Positions 7,188-21,270 of a stretch of DNA of 21,270 nt are shown here, in pieces (position 1 is the first letter of the stretch; each line of letters begins with the position of its first letter). The stretch spans positions 482 to 21,751 of the IMG/VR virus record IMGVR_UViG_3300030098_003348; one strand, written 5' to 3'. The DNA comes from a virus. The notes under the pieces were generated by a model. The model did not search any database, was not told where the DNA came from, and was given only the letters and a program-made list of their open reading frames with translations. Both the position numbers and the translations under genes were made by a program.

Positions 7188-8209
7188 TAGTAACCTACTT
7201 CAGATCGAGTTCATACAATCAGTATAGCATGTGTCCTCATGCCTACTATCTAACCTATGTGCTTGGACATCAATCTCCTTCGGGGCAAGCCGCAGAGAAG
7301 GGCACTATAGTTCATAAGGTAATGGAGTGTCTTGCTCAGGCTAAGCTCGCCCATCAGCAGAATGAAGGAACGATCAATGACGACGCTCTTGGCTTTATGG
7401 ATGTGAGTGATTTTGAGTATGTATATTCAAATGATTTTGTTGACGAGCTGGTGAATCTAAGTTATGAGCACTATACAAAAGACTCTAAGCATCACTATAC
7501 TCCAAGGCATTATAAGCATTGTAAGGAGTGGAGTTATCAAGCAATAACTCATTGTAACGGGGCATTTGATCCTAGAAACAGAGACATAGTTGCTCCAGAA
7601 GGTTCCTTTGACTTCGAGGTTGATGAACCTTGGGCTCAGTATAGTTATGATCTTCCAGATGGCACTAAGCTAGATGGTCGTCTATCAATGAAAGGAACAA
7701 TCGACTTAATTACACAGGTAAGGCCGGGAGTGTATGAAGTTATTGACTGGAAGACTGGCAGGAGGTTAGACTGGGCGACGGGTAAAGAGAAGACCTTTAG
7801 AAAGCTTACTACAGACCCTCAGTTAAGAATATACCACTACGCCCTGTCCAAGATGTATCCAGATATAGACCAATTTATAATGACCATCTATTTTATCAAA
7901 GATGGAGGGCCTTATACACTTGCCTTTACTAAGGATGATATTGAAGACACTAAACAGATGATAAAGAATAGGTTTGAGGAGATCAGAGACTCGAACGTAC
8001 CTCAGCTAAAGAAATCTTGGAAGTGCACTAAAATCTGTCACTTTGGGAAAAATGAACACCCAAGCGGTATAATAAATCCAGACACAGGCTCTCCGTTCAC
8101 TATATGTGAATTTGTCGCAAAGAAAATCAGGAGGAAGGGCATGAATGTTTCTCTTGCAGAGGATATATCCCCCGGCCATCAATTTGATTATTATGAGGCC
8201 CCCGGATAA
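7184..8209 (+). CDS. RecB/Cas4-family PD-(D/E)XK nuclease with probable Fe-S cluster
   Basis: A 341-residue PD-(D/E)XK exonuclease of the RecB/Cas4/AddB/Dna2 group. Reading from ATG 7184: SSYNQYSMCPHAYYL at 9-23, GTIVHKVME with His44, GTIDL with Asp174, VIDWKTG with Asp188 and Lys190, and QLRIYHYAL with Gln213 and Tyr217, the full ordered motif set. Four cysteines fit the family's [4Fe-4S] arrangement: Cys17 at the N-terminus and Cys281, Cys285 and Cys308 near the C-terminus. It could process DNA ends for the RecA-like protein. I chose 7184 because it gives the ATGA overlap with the kinase; an ATG 30 bases upstream adds ten residues that resemble only the kinase frame. Confidence 0.88.
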   Translation: MIVTYFRSSSYNQYSMCPHAYYLTYVLGHQSPSGQAAEKGTIVHKVMECLAQAKLAHQQNEGTINDDALGFMDVSDFEYVYSNDFVDELVNLSYEHYTKDSKHHYTPRHYKHCKEWSYQAITHCNGAFDPRNRDIVAPEGSFDFEVDEPWAQYSYDLPDGTKLDGRLSMKGTIDLITQVRPGVYEVIDWKTGRRLDWATGKEKTFRKLTTDPQLRIYHYALSKMYPDIDQFIMTIYFIKDGGPYTLAFTKDDIEDTKQMIKNRFEEIRDSNVPQLKKSWKCTKICHFGKNEHPSGIINPDTGSPFTICEFVAKKIRRKGMNVSLAEDISPGHQFDYYEAPG

Positions 8210-8406
8210 TGAGAGTTTTGAATGACGCTCAGATCGAACAGTTGCTGGAAGTTACAAGGAAGGGAACGCCAGTAGCAGGCACCGCCCTGTACAAGATTGC
8301 AACAGATTTGAAGAGACTGAGAGGACTTATTGTTAGGCTTGTTGATAGCCATGAAGATAAAGAAGAAGTTGAAAAGATTGTTAAAGAGGCCATTGAATAC
8401 CTATGA
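8209..8406 (+). CDS. Small helical protein of unknown function, 65 residues
   Basis: ATG 8209 shares its first base with the preceding stop (TAATG) and the stop overlaps the polymerase start by 4 bases, so the gene is fixed tightly between nuclease and polymerase. The protein is probably all helical: AQIEQLLEVTRKG, then a short turn and ALYKIATDLKRLRGLIVRLV, then a charged helix from EDKEEVEKIVK. It has no cysteine and no membrane segment. It could be a small regulator or polymerase accessory factor, but no family is recognised. Overlapping antisense frames of similar size lack context and were not taken. Confidence 0.65.
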   Translation: MRVLNDAQIEQLLEVTRKGTPVAGTALYKIATDLKRLRGLIVRLVDSHEDKEEVEKIVKEAIEYL

Positions 8407-10349
8407 AATTCTTTCCATTGCATGTCCACAGCCACTACAGCTTGTTGGACGGGCTGAGTAAACCAAAAGATATTGCGAATAGATGCGTTGAGCTTGACCT
8501 AGATGGCTCCGCACTGACAGATCATGGAACTATCGGAGGGGCTGTGACTTTCGTAAATGCCATGAAGAACAAAGGCAAGAAGCCCATTCTAGGGTGTGAA
8601 TTCTATATTTGCCAAGAGAAGCCAGAAGAAAAGAGCGACCGAACCACAAGCCATCTGGTTGTGCTTGCAAAGAACCTACAGGGTTGGAAGAGGCTGATCG
8701 AAGCGACCTCTGAAGCTAACAGGCCTGAGTTTTTTTATTACAAGCCACGATTGGACTTAGATAATCTAGCTAGGTTTGCAGATGGTAGCTTAATTGCTTT
8801 TAGCGGCCATATGGGAAGCGATCTGGCAAATGTTATATTTACAGAGCCGAGTGAAGCTTACAATGCAAGAACTTACGAAGAAGCACGCTCTATGGTTGAC
8901 CCAGAATGGCTGACAAAAGCCAAGGAACTTGCTTATAAATACCAGAATATATTTGGAGAAGGCAATTTCTTCATTGAGATACAATTAATAGACCAAAACA
9001 ACCTCCCCGCTTCTAAGGTCGTAGGAGAGGCGCTGCGCTTCGTTAGCAAGGAGACTGGTATTCCCCCCGTAGCAACGCCCGACGCGCATTATGCGCGCTC
9101 TGAGGACGCCTATGACCAACGTGTGCTTTTATGTAACGCTATGGACACCACACTGAACGATGTTATGGATAAAATAGCGAAACAGGAGGATGTGGGGCTG
9201 GCGACGTTCTTTAAGTCCACAAACTACCATATTCCGTCTCTAGAGGAAATGCAGGAGATTCATACGGATGAAGAGATAGAGAACACAATGGTTATTGCTA
9301 ATATGTGCGAGGAGTACGATATTACTAGCAAGCCTATGTTACCTAAATTCCCAGTACCTAAGAAGATGTCCTCTGAGCAATACCTGTATCACTTATGTCA
9401 GGAGGGATGGTTACGCAGGAAGGATAAAATTGAAGAGGTCATAAGATACACAAACTATAAAAAAGAGGAGTATGGTGAGAGGGTAAAAAAAGAGCTTGAT
9501 ATCCTAACAGAAGCAGGTCTGTCTGACTACTTCCTTGTTGTACACGATATAATTCAGGCAGCCAAAGATCGTGGTGAGATCGTTGGCGCTGGCAGAGGAA
9601 GTGCCGCTGGGAGTCTTATCCTTTACCTGCTGGGAGTGACTGAGATTGACCCTATTGAGTATGGGCTTATCTTTGAGAGATTCTACAATGCTGGAAGAAA
9701 CACAGAGGAACATGTCAGCTTACCTGATGTGGATATGGATTTTGAGATTCAGAACCGTGATAAAACAATTTCTTATATCAAAGAAAAGTATGGTCATGAC
9801 AGGGTGGCCCAAATCCTTACGTTCAGCCGTATGCAGGGCCGAGGTGCGTTGAAAGATGTTCTTAGGGTTCATTCCGCTTGCGGATTTGAAGAGATGAATC
9901 GAATCACTAAGTGGATTCCAGACGAAGCAGAAATTTCAGACCAACTTCAGGAAATGAGAGAGGCTGACAAGGAATCTGGAGGAGACGGTGATGCCAGTAT
10001 TATCATGTGGGCATTAGAAAACCATCCAGAAGAACTTAAACAGTGGTGCTACATAGACAGCAATGGCAACCTGCAAGGGCCGATGGCAAAGCGTTTCGAG
10101 CAGGCCATTCGACTAGAGGGGACTAAAAGGTCGCAGTCCAAGCACGCTGCGGGAGTGGTGGTATCTCAACAGCCCCTTAATGAGGTCGCTCCTTTAGTGT
10201 TTGATAAGAAGACAAAAGAGCCTATTGCTGGTATGGAAATGGGAGACTTAGAGGCTATGGGCCATGTTAAGTTTGACATACTCGGCATCGCCCTTCTGGA
10301 TAAAATTCATGGTGTCAAGAAGATTGTAGCAACTGGAGACTTGCGGTGA
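8403..10349 (+). CDS. dnaE: DNA polymerase III alpha subunit, N-terminal part (PHP and palm)
   Basis: This 648-residue protein is the first part of a bacterial C-family replicative polymerase. The PHP domain has HVHSHYS (His7, His9), LTDHG (Asp40, His41), GCEFY (Glu66), SHLVVLAKN (His84), SGHMGS (His136) and PDAHY (Asp227, His229), so all metal ligands of an active PHP appear present, unlike E. coli DnaE. The palm has GAGRGSAAGSL at 395-405, LPDVDMDF at 440-447 with two catalytic aspartates, and VKFDILG at 622-628 with the third (Asp625). The protein ends only 23 residues later, where E. coli DnaE continues into the fingers; the rest is in the gene starting at 11914. No intein motif is visible at the end. 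The stop overlaps a GTG start of a glycosyltransferase gene. Confidence 0.93.
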   Translation: MKFFPLHVHSHYSLLDGLSKPKDIANRCVELDLDGSALTDHGTIGGAVTFVNAMKNKGKKPILGCEFYICQEKPEEKSDRTTSHLVVLAKNLQGWKRLIEATSEANRPEFFYYKPRLDLDNLARFADGSLIAFSGHMGSDLANVIFTEPSEAYNARTYEEARSMVDPEWLTKAKELAYKYQNIFGEGNFFIEIQLIDQNNLPASKVVGEALRFVSKETGIPPVATPDAHYARSEDAYDQRVLLCNAMDTTLNDVMDKIAKQEDVGLATFFKSTNYHIPSLEEMQEIHTDEEIENTMVIANMCEEYDITSKPMLPKFPVPKKMSSEQYLYHLCQEGWLRRKDKIEEVIRYTNYKKEEYGERVKKELDILTEAGLSDYFLVVHDIIQAAKDRGEIVGAGRGSAAGSLILYLLGVTEIDPIEYGLIFERFYNAGRNTEEHVSLPDVDMDFEIQNRDKTISYIKEKYGHDRVAQILTFSRMQGRGALKDVLRVHSACGFEEMNRITKWIPDEAEISDQLQEMREADKESGGDGDASIIMWALENHPEELKQWCYIDSNGNLQGPMAKRFEQAIRLEGTKRSQSKHAAGVVVSQQPLNEVAPLVFDKKTKEPIAGMEMGDLEAMGHVKFDILGIALLDKIHGVKKIVATGDLR

Positions 10350-11263
10350 GCATCATTATAGATGATCGTAAATTTGAGGGGATGCACCAATATGTTTTTT
10401 GGAATAACAAATTCTTTCGCTCAGAGGATGTGAGAGATGAAGATATGCATATCCATTGGGTCGCATCTTCTAGAAACATACTAGCCTCTGACCCTCCTGA
10501 GCTAGAGGGCACTCCTGAGAGCGGCGTCATTGCTTCTCACGTAGTACAGCTTAATAAACTGTTTAAAAAACTAAAGAGTGAGACTGGCCCCTACAATATC
10601 GTATTATATAGTAGAGATGGAGGGATTCAGCTACAGCAAGAGTCGCTAGACAAGGGGTATCGTACGAAAAAGGGCTACTGCATTACCTTCAAGATCGACG
10701 AAGGAATAGAAACCCTAAACAGGATACCAAAAAGCGTAAACAAGATCTTTTGCAGCAATGTAACTGTCAACGACAGCCAGATCGTTTGTTTTCCTTATGG
10801 AACTTCATACGACTGCGCAGAAGGAATATACGAAAGAGCAGAAGAGCCTTCTATCAACAAAAGAAAGCTTTGTTACGCAAACTTTAATGTGATAACAAAC
10901 AGAAGGCACAGGATTCCGATTTGGAATAAAATGGTTGAGCTAGGATGGGTTGATGTTCGCTCTGGCTTGACGACAGAACAATATATTGAGGACTTGTTTT
11001 CATACAAATACACTATTTGCCCTAAAGGTAATGGTATAGATACTATGAGGATGTGGGAGAGCTTGTATTGCGGAGCGATCCCTATTGTCCCAAGAAGCGG
11101 AGTTAGCTCTCATTTTAGTGGGCTACTGCCTATCGTTGAGGTGGATGATTGGAATTTAGATAGCGAATATCTGGAATCAATTTACCCAGCTTTAGCGACG
11201 AGACTAGCAAATTTTGGATTACTGAATAAGGAATATTGGAAGGTTGTAACAAATGAACTATAA
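10346..11263 (+). CDS. Exostosin-like glycosyltransferase between the polymerase halves
   Basis: Starts with GTG at 10346, forming GTGA with the polymerase stop, and a Shine-Dalgarno-like CTGGAG lies upstream. The 305-residue product has the C-terminal GT-B nucleotide-sugar half of exostosin/GT47-like proteins: SYKYTICPKGNGID at about 219-232 followed by MRMWESLYCGAIPIV, then a loop and LLPIVEVDDWN at 260-270. The N-terminal half (about 1-170) is less conserved but has strand-helix repeats. Soluble, with no signal peptide. The enzyme would transfer a sugar from an activated donor; acceptor unknown. Its place inside the polymerase operon makes DNA or nucleoprotein a candidate target, but cell-surface or virion glycan is equally possible. 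Confidence 0.75.
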   Translation: MSIIIDDRKFEGMHQYVFWNNKFFRSEDVRDEDMHIHWVASSRNILASDPPELEGTPESGVIASHVVQLNKLFKKLKSETGPYNIVLYSRDGGIQLQQESLDKGYRTKKGYCITFKIDEGIETLNRIPKSVNKIFCSNVTVNDSQIVCFPYGTSYDCAEGIYERAEEPSINKRKLCYANFNVITNRRHRIPIWNKMVELGWVDVRSGLTTEQYIEDLFSYKYTICPKGNGIDTMRMWESLYCGAIPIVPRSGVSSHFSGLLPIVEVDDWNLDSEYLESIYPALATRLANFGLLNKEYWKVVTNEL

Positions 11264-11939
11264 TAACATTTGCGTATTTGACTTTGAGACCAGCAGTGCC
11301 GACAAGAATACTTGTCAGATTCTCCAAATTGGAGCAGCTATTGTAGACAGGTGGAATCTTGAAGTTATAGATACATTTAATTCCCTAGCTAAACCAGAGG
11401 ATATGGATGCTGTCGAGGAAGAGGCCTTGCAGATTAATCGTATCAAAAGAGAAGACTTGGAGGAAGCTCCAGATGTCAAGATAGTGTGGGGACAGTTTGT
11501 AAACTGGGTTAATAAATACAATAAGTCAAAAGGCCCGCTGAACACTTTTAGGGCCCCAATCCCATCAGGCTATAATATAATTGGGTATGATATGCCCATC
11601 GTGCAGCGCTACTGCGAGAAGTTCGGGCCTTGGGATGAGAAGAGAAAAGAACAAAAGCTTTTCAACCAGCTACATAAGATTGACCTAATGGATCACATGT
11701 TCTTCTGGACAGAAAACAATGATACTATCAAGTCGTTAAAACTGACATCAATCTGCGAGTGGATGGGCTTTGCGAAGGCAGATATAGAAAATGCCCACGA
11801 TGCTCTCCAAGATGTTTTGAATACCGCTAAAATTGTCGTAAGATTACTTAGGATGCAAAGATCCTTGACTGCGGTATCGGATGAAACTGGTAAACCTAGA
11901 CTACAAATGAAGAATGCGTTTGGACATGGACAAGATTAA
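11253..11939 (+). CDS. DEDDh 3'-5' exonuclease (DnaQ/epsilon-like)
   Basis: The 228-residue protein is a DnaQ-like 3'-5' exonuclease with catalytic residues in order: CVFDFETSS with Asp10 and Glu12 (Exo I), GYDMPIVQRY with Asp113 (Exo II), and AHDALQDVLNTA with His182 and Asp187 (Exo III, DEDDh type). It lies between the two polymerase genes and overlaps both neighbours, so a proofreading role is the most natural inference. A substantial insertion between Exo I and Exo II (residues about 40-105) lengthens it compared with the catalytic domain of E. coli epsilon. No sign of a clamp-binding peptide was found. Together with an apparently intact PHP domain in the polymerase it gives two potential editing activities. 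Confidence 0.88.
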   Translation: MNYNNICVFDFETSSADKNTCQILQIGAAIVDRWNLEVIDTFNSLAKPEDMDAVEEEALQINRIKREDLEEAPDVKIVWGQFVNWVNKYNKSKGPLNTFRAPIPSGYNIIGYDMPIVQRYCEKFGPWDEKRKEQKLFNQLHKIDLMDHMFFWTENNDTIKSLKLTSICEWMGFAKADIENAHDALQDVLNTAKIVVRLLRMQRSLTAVSDETGKPRLQMKNAFGHGQD

Positions 11940-13566
11940 GATCATAAAGTCAAGCTGCGGCTGCAAGTTCAATTCCCATGACGGCAAGCACGCTGAAATT
12001 GATTTCTACAACATGAACCTCTACTGCCCTAAGACTTGGGGGCTGATTGGAAGCGGTGCCACCAAGGGTATCTTCCAGCTTGAAAGCCATCTAGGTAGAG
12101 AGTGGGCGAAAAAAGTTAAGCCGTCTAACATCGAAGACCTTGCTGCACTAGTGGCTCTGATTAGACCCGGATGTCTGCGGGCTATGAGTGGAGACCCTCC
12201 CAAGAGTATGACACAGAGATACTGCGACAGAAAAACGGGAGAGGAAGAGACTGAGTACTTCCATGAGTCGCTTGAGCCAATACTAAATAACACCTATGGT
12301 GTGCTGGTATATCAAGAACAGGCTATGCAGATTGCACAAGCTATTGCTGGATTCAACCTTCAAGAAGCCGATGTCTTGAGAAAGGCTATTGGTAAGAAGA
12401 AGGCTGATATCATGGCGAAGATTGAGGGACAGTTCATTGATGGGTGTAAACGTGAGGGAATCGTTAGTGAAGAGCAGTCTAAAGAGATATTCGGTTGGAT
12501 TCGTGAGTCTCAGCGTTATTCATTCAATAAGTCGCATGCTGTTAGCTATGCAAAAAACGCATATTGGTCGGCATACTGCAAGGCTCACTTCCCTCACGAG
12601 TTTTTCTGCTCTTACCTACGTGGCTCTGCTTGGAAGCAGGATACGCATGAGGAGGTTTATGAGCTTGTTAACGACGCACGATTAAGCGATATTGAAGTCG
12701 CCGTCCCAAACCTGCCGTCGTTGAGAAAGAGCTTCTATATACACGGAGACTATATTAGATTCGGTCTCTCTGATATAAAAGGGGTAGGAGGCTCCGCCGT
12801 TGAAAAGCTGAAAGAGAGGTCGCCAGAAGTCGAGGAGAAGCTATCCTGTAAAATGGCAGACTGGACTTGGGAACAGTATTTGATATTTTTCTCCAAGAGT
12901 TCTTCCACAACAGTCAATGTAGCAATGATCTCCTGTGGCGCGTTAGACTATACCAAAGTTCCTAGAAACCGTATGTTGTATGAGTTTGAAATATGGAATA
13001 AGCTGACTGCGAAAGAGATGGCTTGGGTGCAGGACAACTATAAACCTCTTAGCTCCCTTAAAGAGTCTTTGATCGCATGTCAACCAACCAAAAAAGAAGG
13101 AGGAGGGTGTAGCACGTCGAAGAGGTCTTTGATTTTAGCGGATCTAATAAAGACTATAGAGAACCCGCCTCATAGCTTAGAAGATACTCCTTCGTGGATA
13201 GCTTGGGCAGAGGAAAAGTATTTAGGGATCGGTGTGACTTGCAGCAAGGTCGATGGATGCAGCGGCTCTGTAAAAGCAAATGCTACATGCAAAGAGTTTG
13301 CGGACGGACGTTCTGGGCATATGATAGTTGCCGTAGAAGTGAACAGGGTCAAGCAGGTTACAACAAAGAGCGGCAAATCGGCTGGATCAAAAATGGCTTT
13401 TATAACTGTATCTGACAGCTCTTGCTCTATTGATAATGTCGTGTGTTTTCCCCAGCAATGGAGGGACTACCAAGGAACCCTACAAGAGGGAAATACTATA
13501 CTACTTCAAGGTGAACGAGATAAAAGAAAGGGTGGATTTGTAGTCCAAAAAGTATGGCAGATATAG
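11914..13566 (+). CDS. dnaE: DNA polymerase III alpha subunit, C-terminal part (fingers, HhH, OB)
   Basis: This 550-residue product holds the second half of the polymerase. After about 35 N-terminal residues with SCGCKF (Cys15, Cys17) and Cys38, alignable DnaE sequence begins: KGIFQLESHLGREW, LVALIRPGCL, the finger segment VLVYQEQAMQIAQAIAGF and DVLRKAIGKKK at 154-163, then RYSFNKSHAVSYA at 201-213. GLSDIKGVGGSAVEKL at 284-299 is the helix-hairpin-helix. The last 80 residues (from HMIVAVEVNRV) match the OB fold. It ends there, without the tau-binding domain of E. coli DnaE, and no clamp-binding motif was visible. It should pair with the 648-residue protein. ATG 11914 or ATG 11926 could be the start (550 or 546 residues); neither has a good Shine-Dalgarno. 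Confidence 0.92.
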   Translation: MRLDMDKIKIIKSSCGCKFNSHDGKHAEIDFYNMNLYCPKTWGLIGSGATKGIFQLESHLGREWAKKVKPSNIEDLAALVALIRPGCLRAMSGDPPKSMTQRYCDRKTGEEETEYFHESLEPILNNTYGVLVYQEQAMQIAQAIAGFNLQEADVLRKAIGKKKADIMAKIEGQFIDGCKREGIVSEEQSKEIFGWIRESQRYSFNKSHAVSYAKNAYWSAYCKAHFPHEFFCSYLRGSAWKQDTHEEVYELVNDARLSDIEVAVPNLPSLRKSFYIHGDYIRFGLSDIKGVGGSAVEKLKERSPEVEEKLSCKMADWTWEQYLIFFSKSSSTTVNVAMISCGALDYTKVPRNRMLYEFEIWNKLTAKEMAWVQDNYKPLSSLKESLIACQPTKKEGGGCSTSKRSLILADLIKTIENPPHSLEDTPSWIAWAEEKYLGIGVTCSKVDGCSGSVKANATCKEFADGRSGHMIVAVEVNRVKQVTTKSGKSAGSKMAFITVSDSSCSIDNVVCFPQQWRDYQGTLQEGNTILLQGERDKRKGGFVVQKVWQI

Positions 13567-14455: not shown

Positions 14456-14931
14456 TGTCAGCATGTGACTTCCTAGAGAAGAATGAGTCCGAAATCGTAA
14501 AAGAGTATTCCCCTTTGGTAGTTTCTCAAGCGCTAAAGTTCAGGCCAAATAAATTAACCAACTTTGATGACTACATGCAGGCTGGCTATATTGGCCTGCT
14601 TAGAGCTATCAGGAAGTATGATCCCGACAGAAATACCAAGTTCTCTACCTTCTCTGTCATCTGCATAAGAAGGCAGATAATGAAAGAGTACAGCAAGCTC
14701 CGCATGTACCCAAGTGCGTTTGAGGATAAAGAAGATGAGAATGTGAAGGAGCCTTTCTGGGAGATACAGCCTGACTATCTTACAGCCACAGAGAAAGAAG
14801 TCCTTGGGCTAAGGCTACAAGGATACACCTATGAACAAATAGGGTCTAAAATGAACTTTACCAAATCTTGGGCAAGTGAGCTGCTCTCGTCAGCCATTAA
14901 GAAAATAAAAGAGGCTAATGCGAAAACCTAG
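14455..14931 (+). CDS. Minimal sigma-70-like factor
   Basis: Starting at ATG 14455 (TAATG with the SSB stop), the 158-residue protein has a sigma-70 region 2: PLVVSQALKF at 20-29, NFDDYMQAGYIGLLRAIRKY at 36-55, and TKFSTFSVICIRRQIMKEYS. After a short linker comes region 4: TATEKEVLGLRLQGYTYEQI and a helix-turn-helix ending in SELLSSAIKKIKE. Regions 1 and 3 are missing, as in small sigma factors of the ECF or phage type. It would direct host RNA polymerase to phage promoters, perhaps for later genes. A longer frame opens upstream at 14416 but overlaps the SSB gene and adds only 13 residues without homology, so I rejected that start. Confidence 0.85.
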   Translation: MSACDFLEKNESEIVKEYSPLVVSQALKFRPNKLTNFDDYMQAGYIGLLRAIRKYDPDRNTKFSTFSVICIRRQIMKEYSKLRMYPSAFEDKEDENVKEPFWEIQPDYLTATEKEVLGLRLQGYTYEQIGSKMNFTKSWASELLSSAIKKIKEANAKT

Positions 14932-16564
14932 AATTCTATGGTGCGGTGAGGCCAGCTATCTCCACACTGGATATGCTATATATGGGCGAGAAGTCTTGGA
15001 TAGGCTTCATGCTACAGGCAAGTATGAGATAGCTGAGTTCTCTTCATATGGAAAGCCCGGCTCTCCAGAGATAAACTCTATACCTTGGAAATACTACAGC
15101 AATATGCCAAGTACAGACGAGGAGTGGGAGGAATACAACTCTGTCGCCACAAACCAGTTTGGAGTTTGGAGGTTCGAGGATGTCTGTATAGACTTTAAAC
15201 CAGATATCGTATGTGATACACGCGACTGGTGGATGCTGAACCATGAAGGAAGCTCTATATTCAGACCCTTCTATCACTGGATGATTATGCCCGCTGTAGA
15301 CTCCGCTCCTCTACAAAATGAGTGGCTAGAGACATTTCAAAACGCAGACACTCTATTTACCTATTCTGAGTTTGGTAAAGAAACTATTGAGAAAGAGTCT
15401 GCGAATAACATACAAGTGAGAGACGTATGTTCTCCCTCAGCAAATTCTGAAGCATTCCGCCCCACAAAAGATAAAGATAGACACAAGTCAAGTTTTGGCT
15501 TCATGGATGATGTGCAGATTATAGGCACAGTCATGAGGAACCAAAAGAGAAAACTCTACCCTGACCTGATCGACTCCTTCTCTGAATTCTGCCGCCGAGA
15601 GCCAGAGATTTCTAGCAATGTATACTTATACCTACATGTAAGCTACCCAGATGTCGGCTGGGATATACCGAGATTGGTAAATGAGTCTGGTGTCGCTCAT
15701 AAAATACTGTTCACTTACTACTGCAACGACTGCAATTACGTCTTCCCCTCATTCCTGACAAATGCAATAAACATCTGCCCAAAGTGTGGTAAGAGAAGGG
15801 CAATGATGCCAAACGCACAGAACGCAGTGCCAGAAGAGTGGTTAGCGAGCATAATAAATTGCTTTGATTTATACGTACAATATAGCATCTGTGAAGGCTT
15901 TGGTATGCCTCAAGTGGAAGCAGCATCGTGTGGAGTGCCTGTCATGTCTATGGATTACTCTGCCATGTCATCAGTAATAAAAAATATAGGAGCTACTCCA
16001 ATAGGAGTGAATATGTTTAGGGAGATGGAAACACACACGAAAAGAGCGCTTCCTAATAATGAAGAATTTGTGCAGAAGCTCATCGAGTTTTTTAGCATGC
16101 CCAAAACAATGCGAATGAAAAAGGGGTACGAGACCTACAATAATTGCATGAACAACTATAGTTGGGATAAGACTGCGGCGAAGTGGGAAAAGGCTATAGA
16201 CGAAGTTGAATTAAAGGACATCAATGAGACTTGGTTGTCCCCCCCAAGAGTTCATAACATTCCAGAAGAAATACCCGAACCTTCCACTATGTGTTCCAAC
16301 GAATTTGTTTCTTGGTGCATCTTGAATATTCTCGGACAGCCGGAAAAAATGAATAGCTTTGAACATATGAAGATGCTTAGGAATATAAACGATGGGTTCA
16401 TGACTGAGGTATTTTCTATATACACAGCCAAAAGAAGGCTTGAGCCGTACTCTGCAAGTGATTTAGCCAATGACTTGGGATTTATGAGAGAGTTATACAA
16501 CGACCTAGAACTCCGTAGAGTCTCTGACTATAGACCTCGGTTTATACAGGAGGATTGTAGATGA
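14918..16564 (+). CDS. GT4-type glycosyltransferase with internal zinc ribbon
   Basis: The 548-residue GT-B protein opens with RILWCGEASYLHTGYAIY, the N-terminal sugar-acceptor half with its Gly-rich loop. The C-terminal half starts at about 200 (IIGTVMRNQKRKLYP with Arg207 and Lys212) and has the donor-binding EGFGMPQVEAASCGVPV at 326-342, with the E-x7-E pair at Glu326 and Glu334. Between them, residues 268-291 insert a zinc ribbon, YCNDC followed by CPKCGK (Cys269, Cys272, Cys287, Cys290), unusual in this family. A C-terminal tail of about 130 residues beyond the GT core is helical and unassigned. It begins 14 bases inside the sigma gene after AAAGAGG. Donor and acceptor unknown. Confidence 0.85.
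   Translation: MRKPRILWCGEASYLHTGYAIYGREVLDRLHATGKYEIAEFSSYGKPGSPEINSIPWKYYSNMPSTDEEWEEYNSVATNQFGVWRFEDVCIDFKPDIVCDTRDWWMLNHEGSSIFRPFYHWMIMPAVDSAPLQNEWLETFQNADTLFTYSEFGKETIEKESANNIQVRDVCSPSANSEAFRPTKDKDRHKSSFGFMDDVQIIGTVMRNQKRKLYPDLIDSFSEFCRREPEISSNVYLYLHVSYPDVGWDIPRLVNESGVAHKILFTYYCNDCNYVFPSFLTNAINICPKCGKRRAMMPNAQNAVPEEWLASIINCFDLYVQYSICEGFGMPQVEAASCGVPVMSMDYSAMSSVIKNIGATPIGVNMFREMETHTKRALPNNEEFVQKLIEFFSMPKTMRMKKGYETYNNCMNNYSWDKTAAKWEKAIDEVELKDINETWLSPPRVHNIPEEIPEPSTMCSNEFVSWCILNILGQPEKMNSFEHMKMLRNINDGFMTEVFSIYTAKRRLEPYSASDLANDLGFMRELYNDLELRRVSDYRPRFIQEDCR
16548..16553 (+). promoter_or_regulatory. Strong ribosome-binding site (AGGAGG)
   Basis: AGGAGG sits seven bases before ATG 16561 and inside the end of the preceding glycosyltransferase gene. 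It fixes that start and shows that the phage uses a standard Shine-Dalgarno system. Confidence 0.75.
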
Positions 16565-17673
16565 AAGTCTTATTTATAGGTGTTTACAAAGACGGGACAG
16601 GCTGGGGAAATGCGGCTCAGAACTACATACTTGCACTAGACGCTGCGGGTGTTGACGTAGTTCCCCGCGCCATAAGGCTGAATGACCGCAATGTGGAAGT
16701 TCCTCAAAGAATACTCCAACTTGAAAAGAAAAGCTCTAAAGGATGTACGCATGTAATACAAAACGTGCTTCCTCATCACATGGAGTATAGTGGTGAGTTT
16801 GAAAAGAATATAGGAATATACTACACTGAGACTAGCCATTTTAGGAACTCTGGCTGGGCAGAAAAGCTAAACCTAATGGATGAACTGTGGGTTCCCAATA
16901 GTCAAATGCTTTGGTCGGCTAGACATAGCCATGTAAAAACCAGAATAAAAACAGTGCATGTCCCCGCATATATAGATAAATATAAGAGGCAATATGAGAA
17001 AATATACTTAGGAACAGAAGGTTCTTTTGTCTTTTACTTTATTGGTGAAGTCACTAGAAGAAAAAACCTTGTGGCTCTTCTTAAAGCCTTCCATCTTGAG
17101 TTTACGACAGATGAGCGGGTAGATCTGGTGATAAAGGGAAACCTTACTGGCATGTGTAAGGAGGAGACTACGAAACATATTAGAGAAATGTGTAATCAAG
17201 TTAAGACAAATCTAAAACTCTACCCAGACATAAGCGATTATAAACAAGAGAAAATAATAACAAAGTATATTGACAATGACACCATGTTGAGATTTCATAG
17301 ATCTTGTGACTGCTTCGTGGCTCCATCTTTTGGTGAGGCTTGGTGCATACCTGCGTTTGACGCAATGTGCATGGGAAATACTCCAATAGTTAACAACTGC
17401 ACAGGCCTTCCTGAGTTCGTAAATAACGATAATGGATGGCTCGTCGATAACGCAGAGGAGCCTGTATTTGGAATGGCACATGGATTCGGATTATCTGACC
17501 TTTACATGGGCAATGAAGACTGGTGGAACATAAATATTAAACATCTCCGTAAGTGTATGAGAGATGCCTACGAAAATAAAAGATCGGATAAAATAGCGTC
17601 CTGCATGGAGAGAAGAGAAGAGTTCTCTTATGAAAAAATTGGAGAGCAGATGAAGGAGAGGTTGAATGCCTAG
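16561..17673 (+). CDS. GT4-type glycosyltransferase
   Basis: A 370-residue GT-B glycosyltransferase. The N-terminal half opens with VLFIGVYKDGTGWGNAAQ, where the Gly-rich loop contacts the acceptor, and IGIYYTETSHF lies at about 84-94. The C-terminal half starts near 155 (FVFYFIGEVTRRKNLVALL), typical of GT4 proteins, and the donor motif at 255-267 reads PSFGEAWCIPAFD. Here the second glutamate of the E-x7-E pair is Asp267, a conservative but unusual change. TGLPEFV and GWLV follow as usual. The gene is preceded by AGGAGG and overlaps its neighbours by 4 and 8 bases. It probably acts with the adjacent transferases on the same glycan. Confidence 0.85.
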   Translation: MKVLFIGVYKDGTGWGNAAQNYILALDAAGVDVVPRAIRLNDRNVEVPQRILQLEKKSSKGCTHVIQNVLPHHMEYSGEFEKNIGIYYTETSHFRNSGWAEKLNLMDELWVPNSQMLWSARHSHVKTRIKTVHVPAYIDKYKRQYEKIYLGTEGSFVFYFIGEVTRRKNLVALLKAFHLEFTTDERVDLVIKGNLTGMCKEETTKHIREMCNQVKTNLKLYPDISDYKQEKIITKYIDNDTMLRFHRSCDCFVAPSFGEAWCIPAFDAMCMGNTPIVNNCTGLPEFVNNDNGWLVDNAEEPVFGMAHGFGLSDLYMGNEDWWNINIKHLRKCMRDAYENKRSDKIASCMERREEFSYEKIGEQMKERLNA

Positions 17674-18727
17674 CCAAGTACAATCTATTATAAGGGGGGC
17701 GACCAGAGATCGTGATGGTAAGCTGAATATACTCACGTTCCCTACTCACGAGAGGTACGAAAGCAACCTCTGTAGGACAGGGCATAATTTTTATTCTGTT
17801 TCTGTTGAAGGACGAACTAAGTCGGGATGGGACACGGACTATGCTTGTATCCCAGAGAACTATACTATACTTGAGCATATAAACAACATACCACTGCTGT
17901 TAGATATAGATATCGTATTGAGTCAAAACAAATACGGACAGTTTGATATAGCTAAAGAGGTTGCTAAAAGATACAGTTGCCCTATAGTATCGCTAGAGCA
18001 TACCTGCCCTCCAAACAGAGAGCTTACTGACCCACTTACCGCCACAGCCTTCTCTCCTGAGATGAGATCTTCTATGGTAGAAAGCTTCTATCACAAAAGA
18101 GGAGACATAAATGTTTTTATATCCGAGTGGAGCCGGGACGAATGGGAGTGGGATGGCGACAGCGTTGTTCTTCATCACGGAATAGACACAGATGTCTTTA
18201 TGAGCATAAACCCAGTGGAAGAAAGAGACAACGATGCCATATCGGTGGTTAATGATTGGGTTGAGAGAGACTGGTGTTGCGGCTATACTCTTTGGGAATC
18301 TGTTATCAGGAAGAGTGGGGCTCCTACTAAGGTGGTCGGCAAAAACCCCGGACTGTCAGAGCCAGCAAAGGACGTATATGACTTGTCGTCTAAATACAAT
18401 AGTAGCAGAATATTTCTCAACACATCAATTGCCTCTCCGATACCGACCACGCTTCTTGAAGCCATGTCTTGTGGGTGCGCTGTTGTGTCTACTGCAACAG
18501 GAATGATACCGGAAATAGTTAAGCACGGGTATAATGGACTCATAAGCAATGACCCGAACAAGATTGCTGGTTATTTATCGGATATACGAAACGATCTGGG
18601 GCTGGCAAAAGAGCTTTCAGAAAATGCTATAAAAACCATAAAGGAGAATTTCTCTCTTGACACTTTTGTTGATAAGTGGAATGAAATATTTTTACAGGCT
18701 GAAACCATCGGAGAACAGGCTAAATGA
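17666..18727 (+). CDS. GT4-like glycosyltransferase, divergent
   Basis: The 353-residue product has a GT-B layout: a first half with KLNILTFPTHERYESN and DIVLSQNKYGQFD, a middle with VVLHHGIDTDVF (about 167-178), and a C-terminal donor half with TTLLEAMSCGCAVVSTATGMIPE. The first glutamate of the usual E-x7-E pair is absent: Ser257 occupies that place, while Glu265 is kept. The middle region lacks the typical GRL/GEVxxxKN strand and has a different sequence (AISVVNDWVERDW). It may therefore be a weakly active or differently specialised transferase. Start is supported by GGAGAGG eight bases upstream; overlaps are 8 and 4 bases. Confidence 0.75.
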   Translation: MPSQVQSIIRGATRDRDGKLNILTFPTHERYESNLCRTGHNFYSVSVEGRTKSGWDTDYACIPENYTILEHINNIPLLLDIDIVLSQNKYGQFDIAKEVAKRYSCPIVSLEHTCPPNRELTDPLTATAFSPEMRSSMVESFYHKRGDINVFISEWSRDEWEWDGDSVVLHHGIDTDVFMSINPVEERDNDAISVVNDWVERDWCCGYTLWESVIRKSGAPTKVVGKNPGLSEPAKDVYDLSSKYNSSRIFLNTSIASPIPTTLLEAMSCGCAVVSTATGMIPEIVKHGYNGLISNDPNKIAGYLSDIRNDLGLAKELSENAIKTIKENFSLDTFVDKWNEIFLQAETIGEQAK

Positions 18728-19194
18728 AACTGAATTTAATCTACGGCAGAGGACAAAAACTTAATGGGTACACAAATATAAATGCTGTGCCTGTCGAGGA
18801 TGACGACGTAATCACAGCAGATCCATCAAATCTAGACTTTTTTGTGGATGACGCTGAGGCAGAAGATATAATAGCATGTGATGTGGTAAATTTTCTACCT
18901 AAGTCAGTAATGGTGTCAACCATCAACCATTGGGTTAGTAAATTAAGGCATGGTGGCTCTATAGCAATAGGTGGTATTGATTGTCATGCTATTGCTAGAG
19001 ATATCGTAAATAAAAAAATAGACCTACACAGCATAAATGATATACTATATGGTGCTGGAGTTTCTGGGTGGGACATCAGAAAGAATGCATTTACTATGGA
19101 AAGCCTAGTAGACCACTTAAGGGATCTAGGCTTAAAAATACAAAGGAGTAGAATTGATAAATATGAAATTATTGTGGAGGCAGTCAGGCCATGA
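18724..19194 (+). CDS. Degenerate class I SAM methyltransferase-like protein
   Basis: A 156-residue protein that resembles the small SAM-dependent methyltransferases found in glycan gene clusters, with LNLIYGRGQKLNGYTNIN at 3-20 corresponding to motif I and its following strand (usually LNLGCG...GYVNID). Here the first Gly-Cys is changed to Ile-Tyr and the ribose-binding Asp is Asn20. DVVNFLPKSVMV and WVSKLRHGGSIAIGGID at 70-86 match the later core strands and a GG-turn. A last strand (DKYEIIVEAVRP) ends the fold. The altered motif I suggests weak or no SAM binding. It could be a pseudoenzyme or a regulator of a neighbour. Stop and start overlap flanking genes by 4 bases. Confidence 0.6.
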   Translation: MKLNLIYGRGQKLNGYTNINAVPVEDDDVITADPSNLDFFVDDAEAEDIIACDVVNFLPKSVMVSTINHWVSKLRHGGSIAIGGIDCHAIARDIVNKKIDLHSINDILYGAGVSGWDIRKNAFTMESLVDHLRDLGLKIQRSRIDKYEIIVEAVRP

Positions 19195-20021
19195 GCACTG
19201 AAAATAAAAATGATAGTGAATTTCCACTGGAACAATCGTCTAACGAGGCAGAAACAATATGCCGAGACTGCGCTTTCGCGGTGTATGAGGGGGAGACCCA
19301 AACTACATGCGCGCTCGGGAATCTGGATAAGCTAGAGGAACAAGGGGCAGACATAATCGAAGTCTACGATGAAACCAATAAGGAGTTTTTCGTTGTTAAG
19401 GGTAGAGTCTGCGTGGCTTGGAGGGGCTCTGATTGGAAAGAAAAACACAAAGATAGAACAGATTTGGAGCAGATAGTCGCCAGAGAAACCATGATCCGCA
19501 TGGACGCAAATATCTATATGGACAAAGATACGACTCTCGCAGATGTTGAGGCTACAATCTTATCCCTAAAAGATAATCTCATCAAGCCCGCTCAGATCAC
19601 GCTGCTCAATAATTTTAGTAAGATTGACAGGCCTACGATGGCAAGGATATGTACCCATTCTGGTTTTAAATGGAGAGTAGAAAATATACAGGAAGGTGAT
19701 GTTGACAAACTTAGGTGTATCGACATTGCTATCAGAAAACTCAATGCAAATGAATTTAATTACTATTGCGTCTTTGATGCTGGAAGAAAAGTCCCTGTTA
19801 ACTTTATTAGCGATATCAATAACTCCTTGAATAAGGATATGAATAGATTTCTGGCACTCAGAGGTGAGGAGGATGGAAATGGAGATGTCGGGCAAATACT
19901 GATGCATAAGAGAATTGGTGGCAACAGAGACAAGTCTTTCTTAGACAAAATCGAACATACAACAAGGAGCCAAGGATGCCCGAACCTTCTACAGAAAACA
20001 TCGGAGATAGTTTCAGGGTAA
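19191..20021 (+). CDS. Cys-cluster protein with possible GT-A-like C-terminal region
   Basis: This 276-residue protein has an N-terminal cysteine set, ETICRDCAF (Cys24, Cys27), then Cys40 and Cys74 (GRVCVAWRG), fitting a metal-binding module. A linker helix region (85-130) follows. The C-terminal part, with AQITLLNNFSKIDRP, RVENIQEGDVDK and NYYCVFDAGRKVPVNFISDINN, is reminiscent of the nucleotide-binding half of GT-A/GT2 enzymes, but the usual NDGS and DxD motifs are not clear; FDAG at about 195-198 could be a remnant. RIGGNRDKSFLDKIEHT ends the alignable part. It is flanked by a methyltransferase-like gene and a GT2 gene. The GT-A reading is a tentative interpretation. Confidence 0.6.
   Translation: MSTENKNDSEFPLEQSSNEAETICRDCAFAVYEGETQTTCALGNLDKLEEQGADIIEVYDETNKEFFVVKGRVCVAWRGSDWKEKHKDRTDLEQIVARETMIRMDANIYMDKDTTLADVEATILSLKDNLIKPAQITLLNNFSKIDRPTMARICTHSGFKWRVENIQEGDVDKLRCIDIAIRKLNANEFNYYCVFDAGRKVPVNFISDINNSLNKDMNRFLALRGEEDGNGDVGQILMHKRIGGNRDKSFLDKIEHTTRSQGCPNLLQKTSEIVSG
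19964..19969 (+). promoter_or_regulatory. Ribosome-binding site (AAGGAG) deciding the GT2 start
   Basis: AAGGAG lies six bases before ATG 19976, within the coding region of the preceding gene. It supports starting the GT2 gene here even though that produces the longest gene overlap of the window (46 bases). Confidence 0.7.
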
Positions 20022-20710
20022 CTGTAATTATACCTTGTCATAACCATGCCTCCTTTTTAGAGAGGTCTGTGGATAGTGTCGTTACTCAAGATTATGAGAA
20101 TAAAAAAATCATAATTATAAACGACGGATCAAGCGATAACTCGTTAGAAGTTGCGACTGATCTATCTAGGAGGCATGACAATATAAAAGTCATCAGCAAT
20201 GAGTCCCCTACTGGGCCATCTGCCGCAAGAAACAGCGGCATAAGGCACGCTTGGGATGATACAGATTTCTTTATGATGCTCGACGCTGACGACATCTACC
20301 TGCCCGGAAAAATTAGTAAGTCGGTAGATATTATATCAAAGGACGTACAGAACATTGGCGTGGTTTACTCTGATGACCTAATAGAGCATGTATCAAGCGG
20401 TAGTGTTGTCCTTGAAATCAGAAGGCCTTATACTAGGTCGGAGATAGAGGTCGAATGCATACTCCCCAACACTTCGCTAGTCAGCAAGGTTGCCCTTAGC
20501 GAGATGGGTCTTTATGATGAAGATATGCGGACAGCCGAGGATTGGGATCTCTGGCTAAGGGTAACAGAGAACTTTGTAGCAGTCCATATTCCAGAGCCGT
20601 TATCAAAACACTATCTAACAGGGCATAACTCCTCCGATATTGTTTCTAAGGATGTTTGGAATGAAAACTGGGCAAAAATAAGGGAAAGGGTAGCTAGATC
20701 TCATAGATGA
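19976..20710 (+). CDS. Family 2 glycosyltransferase (GT-A)
   Basis: The 244-residue GT2 enzyme has all hallmarks of the family: VTVIIPCHNHASFLERSVDSV at 15-35, IINDGSSDNS at 47-56 binding the nucleotide, PSAARNSGIRHA at 81-92, the metal-binding LDADD at 102-106, and the base segment AEDWDLWLR at 187-195. It has no membrane segment, so it is a cytoplasmic transferase rather than a synthase/flippase. Ten or so N-terminal residues before the core are variable. The ribosome-binding site at 19964-19969 supports the start; the stop overlaps the next gene by ATGA. Donor and acceptor are unknown. Confidence 0.9.
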   Translation: MPEPSTENIGDSFRVTVIIPCHNHASFLERSVDSVVTQDYENKKIIIINDGSSDNSLEVATDLSRRHDNIKVISNESPTGPSAARNSGIRHAWDDTDFFMMLDADDIYLPGKISKSVDIISKDVQNIGVVYSDDLIEHVSSGSVVLEIRRPYTRSEIEVECILPNTSLVSKVALSEMGLYDEDMRTAEDWDLWLRVTENFVAVHIPEPLSKHYLTGHNSSDIVSKDVWNENWAKIRERVARSHR

Positions 20711-21270
20711 CTAGGAACACAGGCAGAGTAAAAAAAGAACCCGACTCAACGCAGGAGCCGTTAGGTTATAGCGGGCTATCCGTGATTATACCCGCTGCGG
20801 GTATGGGCAGGAGAATGAAGTCTTATGGGCCGAAAGGATTGATATCGTTAAATGGCCCGTCTGTTCTAGAGAGGCAGTTAAAGATAGTATGGAAGATTTA
20901 TCCAAAGGCGGATATAACCATAGTGGCAGGGTTTCAAGCAGATCTAATAAGTGAGAGAATCAGGAAGAAGTACCCTGTAAGGATAGTGAGGAATGTAGAG
21001 TATGAAACTACAAATGTAGCTAGGAGTTTATTCCTTGGATTAGAAGCTTCACTGAATAAACAGGCTTTGATTATATACGGAGACCTCGTGTTTAATTCCG
21101 CTGCCCTAAAAGGATTGGTAGGCAAAGAGTCTAAAGTTGTGGTAGATTTAGACAGGAATATAAGAGATGAGGAAGTGGGGGTCTTATTTAACGAAGAAGC
21201 TGTAACTAACTTTTCTTATGCTATAGACCAGAAATGGTGTCAGATAGCTTATTTAGCTCCCCACGAGATG
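20707..21270 (+). CDS. Nucleotidyltransferase (GlmU/LicC-like), 3' end outside the window
   Basis: An open frame from ATG 20707 runs in frame to the window end, giving the first 188 residues. After a polar 24-residue leader comes SVIIPAAGMGRRMKSYGPKG at 25-44, the NTP-binding signature (Gly-rich loop, Arg35 and Lys43) of sugar-phosphate and choline-phosphate nucleotidyltransferases. ITIVAGFQADLI, NVEYETTNVARSL and IIYGDLVF (Asp126 as metal ligand) continue the pattern seen in LicC-like enzymes. It would make an activated sugar, alditol or choline for the transferases upstream. The substrate cannot be determined and the C-terminal part, which could carry another domain, is missing. Confidence 0.85.
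   Translation, partial: MTRNTGRVKKEPDSTQEPLGYSGLSVIIPAAGMGRRMKSYGPKGLISLNGPSVLERQLKIVWKIYPKADITIVAGFQADLISERIRKKYPVRIVRNVEYETTNVARSLFLGLEASLNKQALIIYGDLVFNSAALKGLVGKESKVVVDLDRNIRDEEVGVLFNEEAVTNFSYAIDQKWCQIAYLAPHEM

Follow-up and report, generated by a model that had tools for sequence, protein, structure and literature searches.

We analyzed a 21,270-nucleotide stretch of viral DNA (the window; positions 482 to 21,751 of the 21,751-bp virus record G000, IMG/VR IMGVR_UViG_3300030098_003348), in which the alpha subunit of a bacterial-type DNA polymerase III, DnaE, is divided between two plus-strand genes. The upstream gene, dnaE-N (8403..10349), encodes the PHP, palm and thumb half of the enzyme (648 aa; hereafter N), and the downstream gene, dnaE-C (11914..13566), encodes the fingers, HhH and OB half (hereafter C), which is 550 aa long when counted from ATG 11914; comparison with relatives suggests that ATG 11926 is the likelier start. 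A first-pass annotation, made from the sequence alone, had placed two DnaE genes at 8403-13566, and both its coordinates and its reading frames were right.

The two polymerase halves

Pfam searches found PHP (E 4e-37) and DNA_pol3_alpha (1e-70) in N, and DNA_pol3_finger (6e-48), HHH_6 and OB in C. Together, the two products tile the TIGR00594 model (length 1022) almost without loss, N covering positions 1-573 and C positions 576-1021. The earlier claim of a near-whole DnaE with no core block lost holds for this core, but not for the C-terminal tau-binding region of cellular DnaE, which is missing because C stops at the OB fold. The unsplit DnaE of Bacillus phage Andromeda (L094) likewise lacks this region, which is not defining for phage forms. 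The D-x-D palm motif, the third Asp, PHP, fingers, HhH and OB are all present, as in DnaE-type members of the C family; the best DnaE model matches N with E 4e-149, versus 3e-23 for the best PolC model, and C is also far nearer to DnaE.

The catalytic residues were mapped by alignment to the Taq enzyme (2hpi), and all three fall on their counterparts in N, where the first-pass annotation had put them: Asp442 and Asp444 (PDVD; codons at 9726..9734) correspond to Taq D463 and D465, and Asp625 (10275..10277) corresponds to D618. These three residues are invariant in 59/59 relatives. Asp625 lies 23 residues upstream of the N stop and C begins near Taq residue 637, i.e., at the palm/fingers boundary, which bears out the claim that the break comes shortly past the third Asp. 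The site at which the split intein of cyanobacterial DnaE resides, RYSFNKSHA (12514..12540, C residues 201-209), is uninterrupted, as had been noticed before. The residues of GRGSAAG, YQEQ, GKKK and FNKSH are invariant, or nearly so, across relatives.

Modeled alone with AlphaFold, each half is predicted to fold independently, with predicted local distance difference test (pLDDT) values of 91.9 for N and 93.3 for C. Foldseek searches with both models returned the Taq, E. coli and M. tuberculosis DnaE structures; the best matches of N were all DnaE (TMq up to 0.76), and C matched DnaE over 541 columns. The domain content assigned earlier to the fingers half thus agrees with both Pfam and the structure matches.

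Genes in the gap and the new N-terminus of C

The two halves are 1,564 bp apart with two genes inside this gap, close to the roughly 1.5 kb and two genes reported at first pass. One of them (11253..11939, plus strand) encodes a DnaQ-type 3'-5' exonuclease (RNase_T 1e-14, DEDDh-like), a probable proofreading subunit that matches phrog_192 'DNA polymerase exonuclease subunit' (3e-32). The exonuclease gene overlaps the C gene, and these two frames overlap in most relatives as well. The other is an exostosin/GT47-like open reading frame (ORF) with a GTG start (10346..11263, plus strand), recognized by a weak Pfam match (E 5e-5); it overlaps the N stop by 4 nt and the exonuclease gene by 11 nt. Only one weak viral relative of this ORF was found, and the insert is so far unique to the window. 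In the nearest relative, L002 (71% identity in N and 63% in C), N, exonuclease and C overlap and the glycosyltransferase is absent; because the L002 locus has none, the glycosyltransferase is most likely a late, recent insertion, whereas the exonuclease is the constant companion of the gap. Neither L002 nor any other relative examined has the GT47-like protein, and a role for it in the polymerase system was therefore rejected.

In relatives, the slot that separates N from the exonuclease gathers cargo, most often a 60-aa protein, and elsewhere nuclease-like ORFs (L003, L034, L130; Pfam names none of the three as an endonuclease), uracil-DNA glycosylase (L005, L156, L162) or glutamate dehydrogenase (L162). 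In L022 and L045 (around 7279-7282), the exonuclease ORF continues in frame straight after the N stop codon. Genes between the exonuclease and C were also observed: L139, L140 and L158 carry DUF1559 genes (PF07596) there, with DUF1501 too in L139, and the contigs of L023 and L028 also have DUF1559 genes, which occur in none of 14 control genomes. DUF1559, together with DUF1501 in L139, suggests that some members of the clade infect Planctomycetota.

The head of C is a new element (11938..12027), a predicted beta hairpin bearing a C-x-C motif (Cys15, Cys17) and Cys38 in the pattern F-x-C-G-C-x-F, variable stretch, L-x-C-x-x-T-W. Its strands (9-12 and 18-21) are confident in the AlphaFold model of C. 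The C-x-C motif is present in 53/59 relatives and Cys38 in 59/59, and no equivalent hairpin was found in unsplit DnaE homologues. The hairpin may have a zinc or docking role.

Distribution, selection and the search for other polymerases

Relatives were collected from IMG/VR matches to C and from profile scans, and classified by hidden Markov models (HMMs) of N, C and the exonuclease; scans with a single protein, either window N or gp20 of phage phiT1, gave no confirmed relative since the patterns were too specific, whereas profiles succeeded. The first-pass annotation had proposed seeking the same break in related phage contigs. N, exonuclease and C were found as separate ORFs in about 190 viral contigs from many metagenomes (114 rows, including the window itself and a few contigs fetched twice, and 78 more), together with 2 contigs of metagenome-assembled genomes (MAGs). 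None of the clade relatives holding both halves has N, exonuclease or C fused in one ORF. The palm/fingers junction is unbroken in 78/78 bacterial dnaE genes and in 54 other phage dnaE loci. In a tree of 62 representatives, built by a quick method, the N-exonuclease-C type forms a single clade with support of 100 and a long stem. The split is ancient, extends across the clade and is located at the palm/fingers boundary. The same junction is broken on other branches, in phiT1 and L102 and in L107, where the exonuclease is absent; this junction broke at least three times independently. L107 has the simplest form, two genes with an ATGA overlap. Phage phiT1 (L087; Rossellomorea phage phiT1, PV767480.1, 3986-7268) is cultured, and its halves are annotated as two alpha subunits.

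The window is a single metagenomic contig with a so far unique glycosyltransferase insert, and an assembly chimera or a frameshift error, a concern raised earlier for 10349-11914, could in principle produce such a locus. The break and the gene order are shared by about 190 other contigs and the 2 MAG contigs, the break is shared by the isolate phiT1, and the insert overlaps the genes on either side neatly, by 4 nt and 11 nt; an artifact of this kind is exceedingly improbable.

In L297 and L333, the halves are about 7 kb apart, each being present once. This bears on the idea that a fused polymerase is made by translational recoding, i.e., by frameshifting or bypass, for which the overlap of the exonuclease and C frames in most relatives would offer a setting. 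However, the halves are separated by the exonuclease, and in places by uracil-DNA glycosylase, glutamate dehydrogenase or several kb of genes, and the loci hold no ORF that fuses N, exonuclease or C; recoding has next to no probability. A programmed frameshift, in particular, was rejected on account of the exonuclease between the halves and the distances in L297 and L333.

An intact polymerase elsewhere in the genome, another possibility raised at first pass, was sought in 16 relatives of 101-244 kb. Each carries a single fingers half and a single palm half (the latter cut again in L013 and L015), and searches for PolA and PolB in these 16 relatives found none, the family B model PF00136 giving no match. 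The single halves, the lack of PolA and PolB and the separation of about 7 kb speak against recoding, cis-splicing and an intact copy hidden elsewhere in the clade. In the L302 record (166,833 bp), the fingers match at 45797-46282 contains one in-frame TGA, which may reflect either an error in sequencing or stop-codon recoding.

The window and L002 are saturated at synonymous sites; therefore, closer pairs were used to estimate the ratio of nonsynonymous to synonymous substitution rates (dN/dS). The medians were 0.057 for N, 0.039 for the exonuclease and 0.049 for C, i.e., all three genes are under purifying selection, which is strong on both polymerase halves. It could be argued that the halves are remnants, with the host polymerase copying the phage genome and the pieces doing other work (e.g., N as a PHP nuclease). 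A search for the beta-clamp (sliding clamp) domain in 20 relatives found none, so some parts of the host replisome are presumably used, and a phage replisome encoding its own clamp was rejected on the same result. However, all catalytic aspartates and fingers motifs are kept, dN/dS is about 0.05 in both halves, decay is not seen across about 190 contigs, and the locus is surrounded by phage genes for helicase, primase and SSB, so that we consider remnants very unlikely.

According to Pfam and phrog searches, these surrounding genes form a replication operon in which all genes lie on the same strand: a UvsX-like recombinase, DnaB helicase, TOPRIM primase, deoxynucleoside monophosphate kinase, PD-(D/E)XK nuclease, the two DnaE pieces, the exonuclease, SSB and a sigma factor. 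A series of glycosyltransferases comes next. Directly behind the UvsX-like gene, positions 2502-2906 encode a 134-aa protein akin to phage homing endonucleases (phrog_9084, E 2e-17), for which a Pfam search named no family. Downstream of the sigma factor, 14918-21270 holds GT4 and GT2 glycosyltransferases and a nucleotidyltransferase; the GT47 of the polymerase gap may have originated in this module.

Splicing, precedents and the proposed enzyme

In cyanobacteria (Synechocystis/Nostoc), DnaE is the classic trans-spliced protein: dnaE-n and dnaE-c products are ligated by a split intein, with the break at YCFNK/RYSFNK. The phage locus resembles this system in having a C-family polymerase III alpha in two genes, and differs in that its break lies about 200 residues earlier, at palm/fingers, with no intein and with an exonuclease gene in the gap. 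Nevertheless, trans-splicing of protein or RNA might join the halves by means of an element so diverged that it escapes recognition. Inteins do occur in the same clade (in C of L065 and L079, at RPGC), and homing endonucleases lie beside or within dnaE. Against such joining, no intein domain was found in either half, no Rfam intron was found in the window or in seven relatives, and the tails of N and heads of C differ among relatives in length and sequence and are not conserved as splice sites would be. Furthermore, joining would make the conserved extra hairpin at the head of C hard to account for, and the halves are up to about 7 kb apart. We regard trans-splicing as highly unlikely; the first-pass annotation, which had seen no intein-type residues at the edges and had named a trans-splicing element among the things that would refute its reading, is upheld here. 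A split intein was rejected by the family searches of both halves, and a group I or II intron at the break by the Rfam search.

Because the clade is rich in mobile elements targeting dnaE, an origin of the break by fracture through a homing element is plausible, but the exonuclease at the palm/fingers break is no such element. Several of these elements were observed directly. L065 (7968-10367) and L079 (8022-10379) have a canonical intein with an HNH-like insert in C at the RPGC site (Intein_splicing E 2e-16 in L065), and L263 (4987-7344) has a similar long insertion in C, judged by HMM pattern only. L008 (5401-6522), its near-copies and L070 (4604-5822) have a second break in N immediately upstream of PDID, and a LAGLIDADG endonuclease ORF lies between the pieces; in both lineages, the downstream N piece carries a conserved extra N-terminal stretch, NSYIMWIY.

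Polymerase III alpha splits at other places in phages have already been published. Group 2.2 jumbo phages have a split minimal polymerase III alpha that lacks PHP and the accessory domains, is encoded by distant genes and occurs alongside a family B polymerase as replicase (Iyer et al. 2021, PMC7824862). Both cases involve two phage C-family proteins predicted to reconstitute one enzyme; unlike the jumbo-phage form, the window protein pair keeps PHP, HhH and OB, its genes flank a DnaQ exonuclease, and family A and B polymerases are absent from the 16 long relatives. In Microbacterium phage AnnaSerena, polymerase III alpha also occupies two genes (PMC7302621); there and in Gordonia phage Suzy the genes are adjacent and the break is at PHP/palm, leaving the polymerase domain in one piece, unlike in the window. 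The split PolB of phage MIJ3 is an example of a phage gene fractured by an intein or a homing endonuclease (PMC6892783), and it likewise consists of a replication gene in two with another gene between; the window, in contrast, has no intein halves, and its constant gap gene encodes a proofreading-type exonuclease, not an endonuclease. phiT1 (gp20/gp18) and L102 share the palm/fingers break in separate genes, although they belong to another tree branch and have neither exonuclease nor CxC hairpin, the phiT1 gap being one 49-aa gene. PolC also has a DnaQ-type exonuclease inside the polymerase reading order, but there it forms a domain within the PHP of one polypeptide, whereas the window has it as a gene of its own at the palm/fingers junction. 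Two further divided DnaE loci were observed: that of Enterocloster phage CB457P1 (L100, 3989-8817) is in three pieces, broken once at the palm motif and once downstream of the fingers core, and that of Bacillus phage vB_BpsS-140 (L095, 2010-5626) is in two overlapping pieces at PHP/palm and is unannotated. The N/exonuclease/C arrangement was not found in the open-access literature, where the precedents are splits elsewhere or otherwise built.

Taken with the earlier proposal of a true two-subunit polymerase, which the present results support, the locus very probably encodes a C-family replicative polymerase permanently made as two polypeptides. Three points weigh against this: the contigs of the relatives may not be complete; the window record is only a 21.7-kb fragment, so that a second polymerase in its own genome is possible; and a few relatives, among them L059, L060, L066, L072 and L073, are without the CxC hairpin, which indicates that the hairpin is not essential for assembly. 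In the two-polypeptide enzyme, the N subunit would supply PHP, palm, thumb and all three catalytic aspartates, and the C subunit the fingers, where the template and the incoming nucleotide are bound, together with HhH and OB. Judging from homologous structures, the fingers residues and the catalytic aspartates would sit on different chains, so that a working site would need both; the active site would be complete in neither half, non-covalent assembly would be required, and N and C may polymerize only together. Contact would probably be made through the palm/fingers interface, aided by the Cys-rich hairpin at the new N-terminus of C. The DnaQ-type exonuclease is most likely the proofreading subunit and, because its gene overlaps that of C, would be made in step with C; it may be a stable subunit. 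A more specific picture is possible, and we put it forward tentatively: a major aquatic phage clade, some members of which have Planctomycetota-type genes, would replicate by an obligate alpha(N)-exonuclease-alpha(C) heterotrimer, with an active site formed in trans across palm and fingers, and with the exonuclease and the Cys-rich, possibly zinc-binding, hairpin as the glue replacing the peptide bond.

The exonuclease in the gap provides an easy path by which alpha plus epsilon could reach a PolC-like order. The palm/fingers junction, a natural split point because it was broken at least three times, would lend itself directly to the design of a split, switchable polymerase III. If the proposed enzyme is real, a replicative C-family polymerase works over evolutionary time with palm and fingers on separate, unligated chains, which would have a bearing on active-site closure and on the coupling of fidelity and proofreading.

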